From Candidatus Gracilibacteria bacterium CG17_big_fil_post_rev_8_21_14_2_50_48_13 (GTDB taxonomy: Bacteria; Patescibacteriota; Gracilibacteria; 1-14-2-50-48-13), in assembly GCA_002783265.1 (NCBI GenBank), contig PFFG01000009.1, forward strand, positions 186,001-250,000: 64,000 bases of DNA. The letters run 5' to 3'. Position 1 is the first letter of the stretch. Each line of letters begins with the position of its first letter. Below the pieces are notes generated by a model. That model was given only the letters and a program-made list of their open reading frames with translations, ran no database searches and was not told the origin of the DNA. This document shows, piece after piece, positions 44,445 to 58,163 of the stretch. A program made the translations under genes and the position numbers.

Positions 44445-44521
44445 GGGTCCATAGCTCAGTTGGCTAGAGCGCCTCGTTTGCACCGAGGAGGTCAAGGGTT
44501 CGACTCCCTTTGGATCCACCA
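44445..44521 (+). tRNA. tRNA-Ala (anticodon TGC)
   Basis: A complete 77-base cloverleaf: acceptor GGGTCCA/TGGATCC, D stem GCTC/GAGC, anticodon stem CCTCG/CGAGG with loop TTTGCAC (anticodon TGC), T stem AAGGG/CCCTT with loop TTCGACT, and an encoded CCA end. Confidence 0.97.
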
Positions 44522-44578: not shown

Positions 44579-44606
44579 ATCCAAAGGGAGGTGACCCCCT
44601 TTGGAT
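44579..44606. repeat. Hairpin made of two copies of the tRNA-Ala 3' segment
   Basis: ATCCAAAGGGAG (44579-44590) is an exact inverted copy of 12 bases of the tRNA-Ala T arm and acceptor strand (44504-44515). CCCCCTTTGGAT (44595-44606) is a direct copy with one mismatch. Together they fold into a 10-bp hairpin. It ends 13 bases before the stop codon of the minus-strand gene and may act as that gene's terminator. Confidence 0.8.
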
Positions 44607-49167: not shown

Positions 49168-49224
49168 GTGCATTTTGCGTGTGTTTCTGGTAATATGGGG
49201 GAGTACCTATTCCAATACGCACCC

Positions 49225-52200
49225 ATGACACACAAAAAAATCTGGCTAGGCATCGCTTGCGCACTTTTGCTCGCGATGCAGATTTTTGCGGCCAATCCAG
49301 CCTACGCCAAGTCCACTCCTGCCGCGTTCTATCTCGATGATAGTATTCACAACGGTGAGACTCTCGAGATTATGCTCCCTTCAGAGAAGACAGATCTTCT
49401 TGATGCAACACTCCATATTGATGCTCTCGGCGTCGATGTGCCCCTGACCGCCAATAGTGACCGTACGTTCTGGCGCGGCTCCTGGTCTGCTTCTGGTTTG
49501 ACGACGGACATATACACAACAACGCTACGTCTGACCTACAATGACGATCGGGGTCAGGTAACTACAGCGGGACCATCCTTTTCCGATCCTGTTTTTGGAA
49601 ATACAACACCTGGCACGACGGCCTACAGCAATGGACAAATACGCCATGATGGAAAAATCGATGGGCGAACGGAAATTCCAAACCCAATGAATTTTCAAGT
49701 GGACGAAGCAAATGGATATGGCTATGTCATGAGCTATGGTGGATCTTCCGAATCGCTGATCAAGTTTTCACTGACCGACCCCACAGACACGCAGTTTCTC
49801 ACTTTTCCTGTAGAAGGTGGATGGTATCAGGGATCACGTCTTAGCCCTGATGGCGCCTACTACTACGTACTGCCCTATAATAGCGATAAAGTCGCCTACA
49901 AAGTAGATACGGCGACTATGACTATTGTCGGCTCTCTGGCCTTAGCAGGAGACCTTGGATATGTGGAAGAATCTTATCTTGATACGGTGGGAGGTTTTTT
50001 GTATCTCGCATCTGATCATGCAGGTGGTGCATATATTACGAAAATTGACGTTGCAAATTTCACCCTTGTAACGACCTTAACCCTCAATGCCACGGAAGAG
50101 TACCCGACAGCTCTTATGTACAATGCGGGCACCTTGTATGTCGGCCTGGTGAGCAATCCTTCCATTGTTTCTGTGGATACGGCGACCATGACGCGAACAT
50201 CCGCGGTGACGTACCCAAACCCAGAACTCTCGCAGGGTTTCTGGTATGCCGGTAACCAGACACCTATTGCAGGCTTCTACTATTTATCAGTGTATCGAGG
50301 AGCGGGCCCCCATTATATTGCAAAAATTGACGCGACGACCTTGGCCCTCACGAGTCTTATGACCTTGGGGTTAAATGAAAAATACCCGACAGGTTATGCC
50401 TATGACGGGGGAACTACCTTATATTTCTCAGGGTATATAGACGCATCAAATAACAACTATATATCGAGCATTGATTTAACGACGTTCACACGTAATGGTA
50501 CGACGGTAACAACAGACTATGGAGATTATCGCAACCTCCATTACTCTACGACGGAATCGAAGGTGTTGTTTGCTGCGCAAGATCCAACTACAGCAAACTG
50601 GTATCTCAATCTTCGGCGTTTTAATCCGTCCACGCTTGCGGAAACGTCCAATATGCCTGCGCAGAATATCGATACGTACAGTTTTGACTACGCCATAGAT
50701 GAAGCAGCGGGCTTTGGATATACGTTGCAAAACACGTCCCCCATTTCCATCGGTAAGTTCGACCTAGCAACAAGAACTCGTGTTGCAACACTGCAACTGT
50801 CTGCTGCACTCACATTGAATGCCTTTGAGTCAAAAATGTATCTTGATGCTTCCTCCGGTCGTCTCTATGTGGGCGTTTATGATCCAAATGCAGCGAATAA
50901 TGACTACATTTATACCATTGCACTGTCCAATTTTACGGAAGTTGGCGCGACCAATATTGGTCCAGCCCGCGATGTGAAATTTATGACCATTGACCCGAAT
51001 AATAACTATTTGTATGCCTTGGCAAAGGAAGGCACTGCATGGAAGGTGGTTCGTATGGATAGAGCGTCCCTTACCTTTGTGATGTCTTCGAATCTTGCTG
51101 CAAACTATGTTGATGCGGCCTATTTGTCCTATGATCCAACTTCGGGTTATCTGTATGGACTTCTCTATGATAACGGCTTTGCTGTTTGGAGTCTTGTGCA
51201 GATGACAACAACGGGAAGTGTCATAAATTCCGTCAACCTTGCACCTGGAGATACCGTCGGTACGGCGTATCTTGATACGACGCAGAGGGTCATGTCGGTA
51301 GCGACACGACAATCTCCGGCAAAGCTTCTGACCTTCAATATTGATTCGATGACGTCTGTGTCCTCGCTCACCCTCAATGCGGGTCAAAACGATATCAAGT
51401 CCATGACCGTCGATACGGCGTCACAAATTGCGTATCTGTTGACGAAAACGGCACCCGCCCAGATTGTGAAGGTGAATATGCAGACTATGGCGAATCTCGG
51501 TGCCATCGTGCATGATGAAGCGGACCATAATCCCGTAGCAATTTCCTACGATGCTACCCGTGGAAATGTGTATACCTTGTTTGAATTAAGTGGAGTCCGC
51601 CTTCGCATTACCAAAGCATCTCATAAAGGCAGTGTATGGGCGACAAAAGTAACGCTTGCATCTCCAGCGACAAACATTGCCCAAATGCGTTTTTACTCAC
51701 ACGAAGCGGCAGGTAATCTTCGTCTTGCTCTCTATGACAGCAGTAAAAACCTCGTTTGGCAAAGTGGCTCCATAGCCAATACAGCAGCAGGTACGTGGGT
51801 GCGGGCATCTATTAGTGGTGGAACTCCTTCATCACTTGCCAGTCTTGCAGCAGGAGATTACTGGCTTGCTTTTCAAACGGACTCCAACAAACCTGTTGCG
51901 AGTTATACAGCGGGTGCTGCAGGTTCAGGCTTGTTCCTTTCGCAGGATTTTGCCACCTTCCCTGGAAGCATTGCAGCAGGAACTCTGACGGCGCAAAACT
52001 ACACGGTCAACGTGGTGTATGACACAGGTTTCCTTGTGACACAAACAGGCGGAACTACCGTCATTACCGAAGGAGGACCCAATGATACCTATTCCATTGT
52101 GCTCACAGGACAGCCAAGCGGTAATGTTGATATTGCCCTTTCCGCAACAGGTGGCGTGCAGCTTAGTCCAAACAACCTGACCTTTACCTCAGGAAACTGG

Positions 52201-55200
52201 AATACGCCGCAAACCGTGACCGTTTCTATTCCCGACAATGCGACACCAGAATCGAACCGCGTTGAAACGATTTCCCATGTTATTACGGCAGCAGCCTTTG
52301 ATTACGGCCAAGATGCCATTGCTCCTATTTCTGTCACGGTGGTCGATCCTACCGCCTTACCAACAGCAGGTTCTGTCGTTGGTGTCACCAGTATTGGTTC
52401 AACGAACTATCCTGATGGCGGCTTTACACGCATTTCAGGTTCCTTCTTGCCATGGGGTGGTGCGTCAAACCGCACTATGACTGTGGATACGGTCAACGGT
52501 AGTTTGGTTATGGGCGGTAACACCTTCGGAGGACTGAACAAAGTCGATCTCGGTTCCTTTACTTGGTCTACTGCGTTACCAACGAGTGAAGACCTGGGCG
52601 AAGTGCAGATGGAGGCGGGAGCTATCGATGAAGTCAACCATATTGGCTACTACGTAGCAGATGGCGCAACACCTACGCGTATTATCAAGTTCCGTACCAC
52701 GGACATGGAACATATCCAGACAGCGGCGCTGCCACTCGGTGATGTTTCGCCTCGCCGCGTTGTACTCGATACAGCCAATGACATGATGTATATCTACTTA
52801 AAGACTAGCCCTTCAAAGGTAGTAAAGGTCCGTATGTCGACGCTCGAAAAAGTGGGTCAGACAGTTCTTGACGCTATGGAAGATGAAAATTATACGCTTG
52901 TTCTTGGAGGCGACGGGTTTGCGTATCTCGCAGGAACAACATCCAACACAGTGTATAAGATCAATACAAGCACGATGGTGGTGGCAGCGCGTCTCACGCT
53001 TCCTGCTCCTAATAATGGTGTGTATGAAGGATTCCAGAAACCGGTCGGTGGGAAAGTGTATTTTCTCGCATACCCAACGGCGGGGCTTCTTCCTCTCAAT
53101 CTTGCAACCTTCACCTTCGATGCCACTATTCCACTGGCGACCGCAGCCACCAGTATTCGTGCTGTTGATGTCGATGTTGCCAATGCGAAGGGATATATCG
53201 GGCAAGCCGTTACCGGTGTGACCAAGATTAATTTGCTGACGGGTGCTTCGGAGGGAAACATTCCTACGACGGTTGGTGCTCTTCGCGGTATGAGTATTGA
53301 TGCAACGAATCAGTTTGGATATTTCACAGAGGAATATGCCAACGACGGAGCAACCACGGTGGATCTCAAGAAATTCAATTTGTCGACCATGGCTTTGGTC
53401 AGTACCTTGTCCTTTCCGTCTATCCAGTCGGTGCAGGCCTACAGTGTTCTGAACAATCCGAATGGTGCAGAGTACTTTGTGGCTGGACAGTATAATCGCC
53501 CGGTTTTGAGTAAATTTAACAAGGACACCATGCAGCGTGTGGCATCCTTCAAGATTACGGACGGAGGGACAAATGAAAAACTTGAGCCCGTGTACGATAC
53601 GACGCGCGACATGATTTACTGGGGTGCGGATAAGTCGGGAGCTACGGCGGATACTCTCCTGAAAATAGACCCTGCCACCATGACCCAGGTGGGTTCCATA
53701 AACTTAAATGCCTATAATGAAGTGACCGGCGGCGTGATTGACGCTACGGGAACCTTTGGCTACTTTTTGACGAAGAAAGATGAGGCGGGTACCGGTGCGA
53801 CCTCAAATACGCGGGTGATCAAGGTCAATCTTGCAACCTTTATGGTGGATTCCACCTTTGATCTCGCGGGTGGCTACAACCAGGCGCGTCGACCTGTGCT
53901 TGCTTCGGATGGCATGATGTACTTTGGGGTGCAAAAAACCACGGCACCTTCAGGGCCTCATCTCATCAAGTTCAACACGGCGACTATGACCCAGGTTGGT
54001 GACATTACGCTCACAGATGAGAGCTTTAACATGGTTCTCGATGAGGCACACAATACGATGTATTTGCTTACCTATGCATTTCCTGCGGCAATTGTGCCTG
54101 TGGACCTTGGAACCTTTACCACGGGGGCAGGGCTTACCTTGCCAGCAGATATGGGTATGCCATCCGGTATCACGCTGGATGCGGCACGAGACCTTCTCTA
54201 TGTGCTGGTGGCAGACGATACAACGACCTGGCCGGACCGAAAGTCCTATACCATAAAAATTCAGCGTTCACCTTTAGCGGTTCTTGGATCCTTGCAAGGG
54301 CGCTACTGGGAAAATGAACCGGAGGCATCTTTCCTCGATATAGCACGAGGAGCGCTCTACAACGTGTACTACTACGCATACATTGGACCCGTTGCGAAAA
54401 TTTTGCCCAGTTTCAAGGGGGCTACTTGGGGAACGAAGGTGACACTGACGGAAACAACGAATGTGGTGGATACTTTCCGATTCTATGCGCATAACGCATC
54501 AGGGAATGCTCGTCTTGCGTTGTATGACGCGTCGATGAATCTTGTTTGGGAAAGTACCAGCATTGCTATGACGGGTAATGACATGTGGTACAACGTGAAT
54601 GTGTCTGATGGAACGCCAACAGCTCTCTCTCTTGCAGCGGGTACCTACTGGCTTGCTTTCCAGACAGATGATATGTCGCTCCAGCCAGGATACACTCTCG
54701 GTTCTGCGAATACGGGATTCTATATTCCTTCAACCTTTGGTGCCTTCCCGTCTTCTCTTGCGTCGACAACACCAACCTACACGACCCGCAACTTTAGTAT
54801 GGCCATGACGGTCAATGTGGGAACAAGTTTAGTGCAGAGTGGTGGTTCCACCTCTATCGTTGAAGGAGCAGCAGGTGATACCTACTCTGTTGTCTTAAAC
54901 TCTCAGCCAGGAGCAGATGTGGTGGTGAACCTCACGGTGCCAGGCGGGCTGACGACAGATGTGACGACACTGACCTTTACACGGGATAACTGGAATGTAC
55001 CGCAGACGGTCACCGTCACGGCAGCCAATAATAACACAACGGATGGAACCCGTAATTTGGTCATTACGCATACTATTGTGACGTCGGATCCTTATTATGC
55101 GGGTCAAACCCTTGGCAGTGTAACGGTTGTGGTGGCTGACCCCGCTTCTGCGGCACCAGCGGCGCCAAGTTCCCCATTCATGGGTAGTGGTGGTGGATTT

Positions 55201-55983
55201 TCAGCAACGGACTACCAGCAGTATATTTCTTCTGTGAATAATGGGCAGTCGAGTACTACGAACTCCGGCGGCAATACGACGCAAAACTCTGGAGGAACGA
55301 GTGGAAACAAGGGGGGAAACGGAGCAATTACTGTGCCAACTCCTCTTCGGTTCTCTGCACCAGACGCACAGCAAGTGTCCCTCTGTGAGTTCCAGCGTCT
55401 TAACAACCTATCCAGCACCTTTGACCCAGCGACGCTGCAAAATATTGCGGATTTTGCCGACAGTAACTTCCGCATTTTGGTCCGCGACTTTGGAGTAATT
55501 CTTGGAGATGAAGCAAAGGATTTTGATCCTCGCGCTTCCGTTACGCGCTCGGAAATTCTTCGGCTCGTGCTGCAAACCAAGTGTGGATCCTTTGTTCTTC
55601 CAAAGATGAAGGCGCAGCCCTTCCCGGATGTTTCTATTTTGCACAAGGATGCAATCTATGTAGCAACGGCGAAAGCGCAGGACATTGTGAGTGGTTACCT
55701 CCACGATGGTACCTACAAACCTGATAACAATATTTCTCGCGCGGAAGCATTGAAGATCGTGCTTGAGGTCCTCTTCTCGCGATCGGGCTTCAAAGTCCAG
55801 GGGGCAGGCGCGTCACGGATTCCTGACGTGTCTATTGCGGACTGGTACTACCGATATGTCGACTTTGCACGAGAAAAGGGCATCGTTGCAGATGGTATGC
55901 CGTTCCGCCCAGGCGATATGGCGACTCGCGAAGATATCGCGACCTTCATTGTTGAGGGCATGCGCTCTCTGAGTATTCGGTAA
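49225..55983 (+). CDS. Giant SLH-anchored surface protein with duplicated propeller/jelly-roll/Calx-beta-like modules
   Basis: 2252 residues from the ATG at 49225 (MTHKKIWLGIACALLLAMQIFAANPAYA, a signal peptide). The chain is two related halves. Each has a long run of short beta units (SLTLNAGQNDIKSMTVDTASQIAYLLTK and many like it, with the recurring D-T-A-T/S-M-T-x-V-G pattern) that look like propeller blades. Each then has a domain like WATKVTLASPATNIAQMRFYSHEAAGNLRLALYDSSKNLVW (about 810-930 and again about 1720-1840), then a Calx-beta-like domain (ITEGGPNDTYSIVLTGQP..., IVEGAAGDTYSVVLNSQP...). After a Ser/Gly/Asn linker the C-terminus has three SLH repeats, from about 2060 onward (for example FPDVSILHKDAIYVATAKAQDIVSGYLHDGTYKP). 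It is probably wall-bound and outward-facing, perhaps an adhesin or glycan binder. Confidence 0.9.
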   Translation: MTHKKIWLGIACALLLAMQIFAANPAYAKSTPAAFYLDDSIHNGETLEIMLPSEKTDLLDATLHIDALGVDVPLTANSDRTFWRGSWSASGLTTDIYTTTLRLTYNDDRGQVTTAGPSFSDPVFGNTTPGTTAYSNGQIRHDGKIDGRTEIPNPMNFQVDEANGYGYVMSYGGSSESLIKFSLTDPTDTQFLTFPVEGGWYQGSRLSPDGAYYYVLPYNSDKVAYKVDTATMTIVGSLALAGDLGYVEESYLDTVGGFLYLASDHAGGAYITKIDVANFTLVTTLTLNATEEYPTALMYNAGTLYVGLVSNPSIVSVDTATMTRTSAVTYPNPELSQGFWYAGNQTPIAGFYYLSVYRGAGPHYIAKIDATTLALTSLMTLGLNEKYPTGYAYDGGTTLYFSGYIDASNNNYISSIDLTTFTRNGTTVTTDYGDYRNLHYSTTESKVLFAAQDPTTANWYLNLRRFNPSTLAETSNMPAQNIDTYSFDYAIDEAAGFGYTLQNTSPISIGKFDLATRTRVATLQLSAALTLNAFESKMYLDASSGRLYVGVYDPNAANNDYIYTIALSNFTEVGATNIGPARDVKFMTIDPNNNYLYALAKEGTAWKVVRMDRASLTFVMSSNLAANYVDAAYLSYDPTSGYLYGLLYDNGFAVWSLVQMTTTGSVINSVNLAPGDTVGTAYLDTTQRVMSVATRQSPAKLLTFNIDSMTSVSSLTLNAGQNDIKSMTVDTASQIAYLLTKTAPAQIVKVNMQTMANLGAIVHDEADHNPVAISYDATRGNVYTLFELSGVRLRITKASHKGSVWATKVTLASPATNIAQMRFYSHEAAGNLRLALYDSSKNLVWQSGSIANTAAGTWVRASISGGTPSSLASLAAGDYWLAFQTDSNKPVASYTAGAAGSGLFLSQDFATFPGSIAAGTLTAQNYTVNVVYDTGFLVTQTGGTTVITEGGPNDTYSIVLTGQPSGNVDIALSATGGVQLSPNNLTFTSGNWNTPQTVTVSIPDNATPESNRVETISHVITAAAFDYGQDAIAPISVTVVDPTALPTAGSVVGVTSIGSTNYPDGGFTRISGSFLPWGGASNRTMTVDTVNGSLVMGGNTFGGLNKVDLGSFTWSTALPTSEDLGEVQMEAGAIDEVNHIGYYVADGATPTRIIKFRTTDMEHIQTAALPLGDVSPRRVVLDTANDMMYIYLKTSPSKVVKVRMSTLEKVGQTVLDAMEDENYTLVLGGDGFAYLAGTTSNTVYKINTSTMVVAARLTLPAPNNGVYEGFQKPVGGKVYFLAYPTAGLLPLNLATFTFDATIPLATAATSIRAVDVDVANAKGYIGQAVTGVTKINLLTGASEGNIPTTVGALRGMSIDATNQFGYFTEEYANDGATTVDLKKFNLSTMALVSTLSFPSIQSVQAYSVLNNPNGAEYFVAGQYNRPVLSKFNKDTMQRVASFKITDGGTNEKLEPVYDTTRDMIYWGADKSGATADTLLKIDPATMTQVGSINLNAYNEVTGGVIDATGTFGYFLTKKDEAGTGATSNTRVIKVNLATFMVDSTFDLAGGYNQARRPVLASDGMMYFGVQKTTAPSGPHLIKFNTATMTQVGDITLTDESFNMVLDEAHNTMYLLTYAFPAAIVPVDLGTFTTGAGLTLPADMGMPSGITLDAARDLLYVLVADDTTTWPDRKSYTIKIQRSPLAVLGSLQGRYWENEPEASFLDIARGALYNVYYYAYIGPVAKILPSFKGATWGTKVTLTETTNVVDTFRFYAHNASGNARLALYDASMNLVWESTSIAMTGNDMWYNVNVSDGTPTALSLAAGTYWLAFQTDDMSLQPGYTLGSANTGFYIPSTFGAFPSSLASTTPTYTTRNFSMAMTVNVGTSLVQSGGSTSIVEGAAGDTYSVVLNSQPGADVVVNLTVPGGLTTDVTTLTFTRDNWNVPQTVTVTAANNNTTDGTRNLVITHTIVTSDPYYAGQTLGSVTVVVADPASAAPAAPSSPFMGSGGGFSATDYQQYISSVNNGQSSTTNSGGNTTQNSGGTSGNKGGNGAITVPTPLRFSAPDAQQVSLCEFQRLNNLSSTFDPATLQNIADFADSNFRILVRDFGVILGDEAKDFDPRASVTRSEILRLVLQTKCGSFVLPKMKAQPFPDVSILHKDAIYVATAKAQDIVSGYLHDGTYKPDNNISRAEALKIVLEVLFSRSGFKVQGAGASRIPDVSIADWYYRYVDFAREKGIVADGMPFRPGDMATREDIATFIVEGMRSLSIR

Positions 55984-57649: not shown

Positions 57650-57866
57650 GCGAGTTCGTCAGGAATTGTAAGGATATTATTACACGTTCTTAAAAGATGA
57701 CAAGGTATTACTTCTCAAAGTGCAGCACAAATAACGCTAATTCACTGTTTGATCTATGGCAACGTCTGCCATTGTCCTTCTTCGCAAAGCTTCGAAGGAC
57801 ACTCATTCTACGGGTAAATCTTCTTCATGGCTTCCGGCGAAGCCATTCGAAGCTTCAGCGTAGAAT
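57650..57866. repeat. Nested inverted repeats beside the tRNA-Ile element
   Basis: No gene. CATTCTACG (57804-57812) and CGTAGAATG (57860-57868) are exact inverted arms. Inside them ATGGCTTC (57827-57834) and GAAGCCAT (57839-57846) form a second 8-bp hairpin around CGGC, and AAGCTTCGAAGG / TCGAAGCTTC copies flank these. The part nearest 57650-57710 should hold the promoter of the minus-strand SLH gene; TTGTCA and TAATAT with an 18-base spacer are visible on that strand. Confidence 0.65.
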
Positions 57867-58107
57867 GGTGGGTATGGGAGGACTTGGTCACCTCACGCTC
57901 GTCGCCTCGGTTCGCGTTGCTCACAGGCTCCTAGCTGCGGCGACCCCCGCCGCTCAAAAGGCACATTATGGTGCCTTTTGCCCCTCCGCTTCGCTGCGGG
58001 TCGCTCTATTCAAGTCCTCCCATAATTGCCTTCGTTGAAGCGCAATAAAAAGCCGCAGTGCGGTTCGGTTAATTGCTGCATATTCGTGGTGGGTATGGGA
58101 GGACTTG
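57867..58107. repeat. Short element flanked by copies of the tRNA-Ile 3' end
   Basis: The last 21 bases of tRNA-Ile (58087-58107 on the plus strand) are repeated exactly at 57867-57887, 220 bases away. A 16-base inverted copy (TTCAAGTCCTCCCATA) lies between them at 58009-58024. The interval also has a 9-bp hairpin (AAAAGGCAC...GTGCCTTTT, near 57957-57980) and GC-rich palindromes. There is no open frame with coding character. This is a MITE-like or att-like structure on the 3' side of the tRNA. Confidence 0.75.
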
Positions 58108-58163
58108 AACCTCCGACCTCGACATTATCAGTGTCGCGCTCTAACCAGCTGAGCTACACACCC
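58087..58163 (-). tRNA. tRNA-Ile (anticodon GAT)
   Basis: On the minus strand a full 77-base cloverleaf: acceptor GGGTGTG/CATACCC (one G-T pair), D stem GCTC/GAGC, anticodon stem CGACA/TGTCG with loop CTGATAA (anticodon GAT), a T arm with TTCAAGT, and an encoded CCA end. Its promoter lies at 58186-58213. Confidence 0.96.

Follow-up and report, generated by a model that had tools for sequence, protein, structure and literature searches.

MITEs and REP-type palindromic repeats are short, multicopy, non-coding and rich in hairpins, and the same is true of the elements analysed here, but the terminal arms of the latter fit the neighbouring tRNA and differ between copies, and their linkage to tRNA genes and their orientation are strict. 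Conserved terminal inverted repeats of the MITE kind were not found, the outer arms of closely related cores agreeing at 2-5 of 10 positions. In tRNA 3' external transcribed spacer RNAs and in leader or trailer controls, RNA read from a trailer base-pairs with other RNA. The present elements would likewise give a trailer-read RNA able to base-pair, but its predicted partner is its own tRNA, and it would carry a spare tRNA 3' end.

Integrative elements and phages offer another comparison, the T-loop being a known crossover place, as for phage Ms6 (PMC1762012). Like such elements at the T-loop or 3' end of a tRNA gene, those described here have a boundary in the T-loop and a forward duplication of the 3' end that keeps the tRNA intact; unlike them, they have no coding capacity, arms that fit the local tRNA, an extra antisense arm and a conserved RNA core. 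The direct repeat of the tRNA 3' end on both sides, as for an integrase-type element, was present (21 of 21 positions in the window, while in 6 of 13 copies of the genome the second repeat is no better than chance), but a core sequence common to all sites was absent, as each arm matches its local tRNA, not the arms of other copies. The T-loop of tmRNA is interrupted by group I introns (PMC11915505). There, as appears to be the case here, a structured RNA lies at the T-loop of a tRNA-like molecule and one loop has been invaded repeatedly; the present elements differ in that their core is shorter and matches no group I model of Rfam, the terminal G is missing, and the first 3' end is retained upstream.

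Anatomy of the element behind tRNA-Ile

The window, which is the whole stretch of 64,000 nucleotides that was analysed, comes from a genome of 1.28 Mb in 11 contigs. The parts of the element behind its tRNA-Ile(GAU) gene, and those of a reduced copy found in the same window, are as follows.

58087-58163, minus strand: host tRNA-Ile(GAU), CCA encoded (ARAGORN; Rfam RF00005, 73.6 bits)
58087-58107, minus strand: first copy of the tRNA 3' end, from C56 of the T-loop to CCA76 (direct repeat)
58025-58086, minus strand: trailer, with a terminator-like hairpin at about 58053-58063 and a T-run at about 58047-58051 (from the sequence; the order of parts is the same in other copies)
58009-58024, minus strand: antisense (5') arm, reverse complement of tRNA nt 54-69, 16/16 (inverted repeat)
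57887-58008, minus strand: structured core RNA of about 122 nt (covariance model built without the window copy, E 2.2e-11, and covariation)
57955-57980, minus strand: core hairpin P2, loop CAUAAU (alignment, covariation and fold)
57939-57945, minus strand: core helix P3, 5' strand GGUCGCC (covariation)
57886-57892, minus strand: core helix P3, 3' strand GGUGACC, the last base of which is C56 of the second copy (covariation)
57866-57886, minus strand: second (forward) copy of the tRNA 3' end, C56 to CCA, 21/21 (direct repeat)
44445-44521, plus strand: tRNA-Ala(UGC), host of a reduced copy without a core (ARAGORN)
44579-44606, plus strand: reduced copy behind tRNA-Ala, consisting of antisense arm, short loop and forward arm (repeat comparison)

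The first-pass annotation of this DNA had described an exact 21-base direct repeat ending at the CCA of tRNA-Ile, a 16-base inverted copy inside it, and a strongly folded interior without a gene, and all three were confirmed. The two copies of the direct repeat (57866-57886 and 58087-58107) are 221 nt apart from start to start; the start had been placed at 57867, one base away from its true position at 57866. The inverted copy at 58009-58024 exactly matches 58094-58109, and the 231-nt interval folds at -86.2 kcal/mol, with a z-score of -3.2 against dinucleotide shuffles. No credible gene was found within the element in the list of open reading frames, where the overlapping frames are mechanical, and a unit of about 220 nt leaves no room for coding. 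Elsewhere in the window, a plus-strand open frame of 2271 codons extends from 49168 to 55983. A chance origin of the window repeat was excluded because 13 further copies in the genome share the same order of parts.

The family of tRNA-matched elements

A DNA search of the genome with the window element gave matches behind tRNA-Asp, tRNA-Ser(UGA) and tRNA-Glu(CUC), and a short sequence pattern added a copy behind tRNA-Val. These four copies were used to build a covariance model, R1, from which the window copy was left out. A search with this model revealed 14 places in the genome at E<1e-6, including the window copy at E 2.2e-11, and one more at E 6.6. Thirteen of the 14 copies follow directly on the 3' side of a same-strand tRNA, the hosts being Ser(UGA, GGA, CGA), Glu(CUC, UUC), Val(GAC), Arg(UCU, GCG), Asp, Gln(CUG), Ile and Leu(UAG, GAG). 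The remaining copy (L022) is cut on its tRNA side by a contig end, which suggests that the element repeats break assemblies. At this end of contig C6, a Ser-like tRNA 3' end was observed beside the element, interrupted by the contig end. The match at E 6.6 lies behind tRNA-Leu(UAA) and looks like a partial copy, and reduced copies made up of two arms and a short loop were found behind tRNA-Ala (in the window) and tRNA-Tyr. There were 39 tRNA matches in the genome, the DNA downstream of 35 was screened, and about a third of the tRNA genes have an element behind them. The earlier suggestion of a class of tRNA-derived 3' repeats that includes the tRNA-Ala case holds, the tRNA-Ala copy being real but reduced and without a core. 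The tRNA-matched structured RNA elements are a real family, and their main value lies outside the coordinates of the window.

On the tRNA strand, the parts follow one another in the order tRNA with CCA, trailer (some 55-65 nt long, containing a terminator-like hairpin and a T-run), antisense arm, core of about 110-145 nt, and forward copy starting from C56. The T-loop is where both arms end, since the antisense arm is the reverse complement of nt 54-69 and the forward copy begins at C56. The arm test was restricted to nt 61-70, so that the universal T-loop was excluded. The antisense arm agreed with its own tRNA at 8-10 of these 10 positions in all 13 copies, compared with a mean of 6.2 for other tRNAs, and none of 20,000 permutations reached the observed sum. 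The only sequence shared by the arms of all copies consists of universal T-loop bases. When cores were compared, with the Asp core left out, those of Arg(UCU) and Ser(GGA) were 87% identical with outer arms agreeing at 2 of 10 positions, and those of Ser(UGA) and Glu(CUC) were 84% identical with outer arms agreeing at 5 of 10. As cores that are up to 87% identical have unrelated arms, the arms were taken from, or adapted to, the local tRNA; judging from these sequences, such arms cannot have come along with the core. An integrase element of the classical kind, whose attachment core is fixed, would not account for two arms that are both specific to the local tRNA.

The forward copy was good (8-10 of 10) in seven of the 13 copies in the window's genome and at chance level (5-7 of 10) in the other six, namely those of Ser(UGA), Glu(CUC), Ser(GGA), Gln, Arg(GCG) and Leu(GAG). 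Doudnabacteria copies have a shorter antisense arm, in many cases of some 10 nt, together with a better preserved forward copy. The tRNA-Ala of genome G464 (L202) has a variant T-loop, AGTCCGATTC, and the same variant is present in the antisense arm and in two further copies of the 3' end. In 4 of 16 loci, the direct repeat continues for 47-69 nt beyond the CCA at 92-99% identity, which suggests that the tRNA 3' end and the trailer were duplicated together. At the tRNA-Trp of G428 it reaches 65 nt beyond the CCA at 72% identity, and in the remaining 11 loci it stops no more than 8 nt from the CCA.

Structure and distribution of the core RNA

Covariation was scored in two sets of copies, with each structure drawn from the sequences used to score it, which somewhat favours the structures: in 15 copies from the window's genome, aligned by fitting to the model, 96.2% of cells were paired compared with 36-47% when the 3' partners were slid, and 8 of 16 pairs had changed on both sides, and in seven copies (six from Doudnabacteria and that of the window, with four helices) the corresponding values were 90.9% and 35-54%, with changes on both sides in 17 of 30 pairs. 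An Rfam search of the elements gave no family, only tRNA and RNase P being above the gathering score, and the Rfam group I intron covariance model gave no match at the thresholds used. A known RNA family was rejected as the identity of the element on the grounds that no Rfam match reached the gathering score. A primer site of a tRNA-primed retroelement was also rejected, as the antisense arm, from reading the sequences, usually ends before the CCA. A guide RNA for a nuclease or transposase was considered as another possible identity. The first-pass annotation had proposed either a mini-element or the remnant of an island. A non-coding mini-element at the tRNA 3' end is what was found, and since its interior is a conserved, covarying RNA structure, it is not merely a remnant.

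In the predicted read-through RNA, all 13 tRNAs that have an element pair with it through nt 61-65, whereas such pairing with the DNA downstream is predicted for 2 of 22 tRNAs without an element in the same genome (both tRNA-Thr) and for 0 of 24 in the relative G025, where in one tRNA a single base is so paired. Seventeen loci have a second copy that is well kept (17-20 of 20), and in 15 of them tRNA nt 1-7 were predicted to pair with that copy, the exceptions being Arg(UCU) and the Gly of G542. The read-through transcripts are predicted to be bistable, from folds that are thermodynamic only and in which the preference for the refolded form stems partly from the palindromic layout; kinetic folding, tRNA modification and termination could keep the normal tRNA favoured throughout. 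With a forward copy at chance level in six of this genome's 13 copies, refolding around that copy cannot be a general property, and at loci where it has been lost the read-through RNA would yield no tRNA.

When R1 was run across 288 genomes of the same class, including the window's own, none of the 287 others was matched, the window's genome being the sole member of its order in this sample. The first-pass annotation had named a structured RNA conserved in all relatives as grounds against its reading; the structured RNA was found, but its occurrence is patchy. In a phylum sample of 379 genomes, model R2 gave weak matches in six other genomes, of which three, all of family f47 (Doudnabacteria), had tRNA-linked matches, and the other three had matches without tRNA linkage. 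A further model, R3, was built from six f47 copies and the window copy, and gave 23 matches at E<=0.1 in 8 of 22 f47 genomes; on the phylum sample it added one weak unlinked match only. A tRNA precedes 20 of the 23, among which two are overlapping parts of one element, and those without linkage are L192, L195 and L204. At L192 and L204 the element adjoins a degenerate tRNA 3' end, with no recognisable tRNA. Weak model matches at L059, L061, L063, L069-L073, L195 and L212 were dropped as chance matches or relics, having no tRNA on the same strand; at L073 a tRNA-Pro is present on the strand opposite to the match.

An exact-pattern scan with the core type of the window's genome gave no match in genome contigs or in viral contigs. 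The Doudnabacteria-type pattern was found in six records among genome contigs, all of them MAGs corresponding to f47 genomes; their titles name Candidatus Doudnabacteria (MAG-295, MAG-296), Patescibacteria group bacterium UBA926 and 'bacterium' FK3.bin112, and the name Doudnabacteria is applied to f47 on this basis. In viral contigs, neither this pattern nor that of a second core type was found. A phage search gave no match, and two short plasmid matches, covering 16% and 36% of the query, were taken as chance.

Turnover was apparent when the same tRNA was compared between genomes. Behind tRNA-Leu(GAG), an element is present in G428, G600, G464 and G542 and absent in G490. Behind tRNA-Gly(GCC), core 1 is present in G464, G542 and G490, a divergent core in G600, and a different one, core 2, in G428. 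Orthologues in G464 and G542 show compensatory changes, and the Gly(GCC) elements of these two genomes appear to have been inherited, as would suit a resident feature no less than a mobile one. Core 2 was found in five tRNA units of G428; of its 40 predicted pairs, 24 show a change on both sides in one or more of the five sequences. Core 3 lies behind both tRNA-Lys genes of that genome. As these cores take the same position, the docking scheme is common to at least three cores. The G428 loci with two further structured cores at the position of the main core are L083, L084, L086, L089, L094 and L097. Tandem units of the element were found at the tRNA-Glu(CUC) of G428. Duplication of the tRNA 3' end around varied inserts seems common in some of these genomes, and in G025 it was found in 0 of 24. 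REP-like hairpin inserts without a core were also observed between a tRNA and its second 3'-end copy, at L122, L131 and L132 in G490 and at L139, L148 and L150 in G016.

Explanations and meaning

We favour, at about an even chance, the reading that these are non-coding, structured RNA elements of small size, which insert at the T-loop behind tRNA genes, carry arms derived from the host, and make the pre-tRNA switchable. The element would enter at the U55/C56 boundary of the universal T-loop, whose GTTCRA motif is common to nearly all tRNAs, and both arms would be made as copies of the host tRNA's own 3' arm. Lying in the tRNA strand, it would become part of the pre-tRNA if transcription passed the trailer hairpin. 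We infer a pre-tRNA with two states, in which transcription ending at the trailer would give a normal tRNA, and on read-through the antisense arm could capture the first 3' end; with an intact forward copy, the tRNA could refold around the second 3' end, leaving the core as an insert in the T-loop. Such elements would be mobile and able to insert into new tRNA genes, they would be transcribed and at times read through, and they may have a function or benefit for the element or the host. Insertion at the T-loop with target-made arms is favoured because homologous cores are found on unrelated tRNAs, the distribution is patchy, different cores occupy one site, and units occur in tandem. On the other side, the analysis linked the elements to no transposase, recombinase or reverse transcriptase, and saw neither excised forms nor empty alleles in near strains.

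The RNA could instead be owned by the host, acting in cis to control pre-tRNA quality or dosage, having spread by duplication with arms kept complementary by selection and a read-through RNA unable to fold as tRNA. This would explain why the antisense arm was kept in 13 of 13 copies when the forward copy had decayed to chance in 6 of 13, why the element is always in the tRNA strand, and why compensatory changes are seen between the G464 and G542 orthologues. It is nevertheless unlikely, given the very patchy distribution (0 of 287 other genomes of the class and, beyond the class, one Doudnabacteria family), the near-identical cores on unrelated tRNAs, and the three unrelated core types at the same position. 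A non-autonomous integrase-type element, sitting between attL and attR at the tRNA 3' end and mobilised through the action of a tyrosine recombinase on the T-loop, as the first-pass annotation had in part proposed, would account for the direct repeats of the tRNA 3' end with a boundary in the T-loop, the crossover place known from phage Ms6 (PMC1762012), and for the tandem units at the G428 tRNA-Glu(CUC). Against it, the core site differs for each copy and fits its own tRNA, the antisense arm is extra, and a conserved covarying RNA would be superfluous, and we consider it quite improbable.

It is very unlikely that the element is a T-loop intron of a new ribozyme type, in which splicing of read-through RNA would remove everything from the first C56 up to the end of the core and join the tRNA body onto the second 3' end, the first one serving as a fallback. 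The U55/C56 boundaries are exact, the acceptor stem is rebuilt with the second copy in 15 of 17 predicted folds, and group I introns are known to interrupt the T-loop of tmRNA (PMC11915505), but no Rfam intron matched, six of the 13 copies in the window's genome have lost their forward copy, and although U55 precedes the insert, the insert ends in C and not in the terminal G of group I. There is also a slim chance that hairpin snap-back and template switching at tRNA trailers made the palindrome and repeats as a DNA-level by-product, with the core as a passive insert. In several Doudnabacteria (f47) loci, the stretch from T-loop to trailer and the antisense arm do form one inverted repeat of 37-43 nt, at 76-84% identity, around the trailer hairpin; homologous cores at many tRNAs and the covariation would be left unexplained.

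Insertion at the T-loop with target-made arms may be taken further, to a new class of mobile RNA that targets the T-loop, has arms rewritten for each tRNA in antisense and sense, imposes a two-state pre-tRNA that can discard the first 3' end and re-form around the copy in the element, possibly includes removal of the core as a new intron or ribozyme, and comprises several unrelated cores; this fuller version is possible, if doubtful. No description of such elements was found in Rfam or in the open-access literature searched, and the tRNA-linked element looks like an undescribed kind of tRNA-targeting RNA element. Small GIY-YIG nuclease ORFs were observed between a tRNA (Lys, Cys or Pro) and its second 3'-end copy at L138, L141, L163, L164 and L177 (G016 and G428), as though this docking place also served homing endonuclease genes. 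The sole small GIY-YIG ORF in the window's genome has no tRNA in its 3.2-kb locus, so a GIY-YIG protein as the mobilising enzyme is a lead only.

The favoured reading, if true, raises the question of how an element copies its target in both orientations. In that case, a very small genome keeps a folded RNA tailored to the tRNA behind about a third of its tRNA genes. It would represent a new route by which an RNA element reaches a landing site that is both safe and universal, and would add a new layer between the transcription of a tRNA and its folding.
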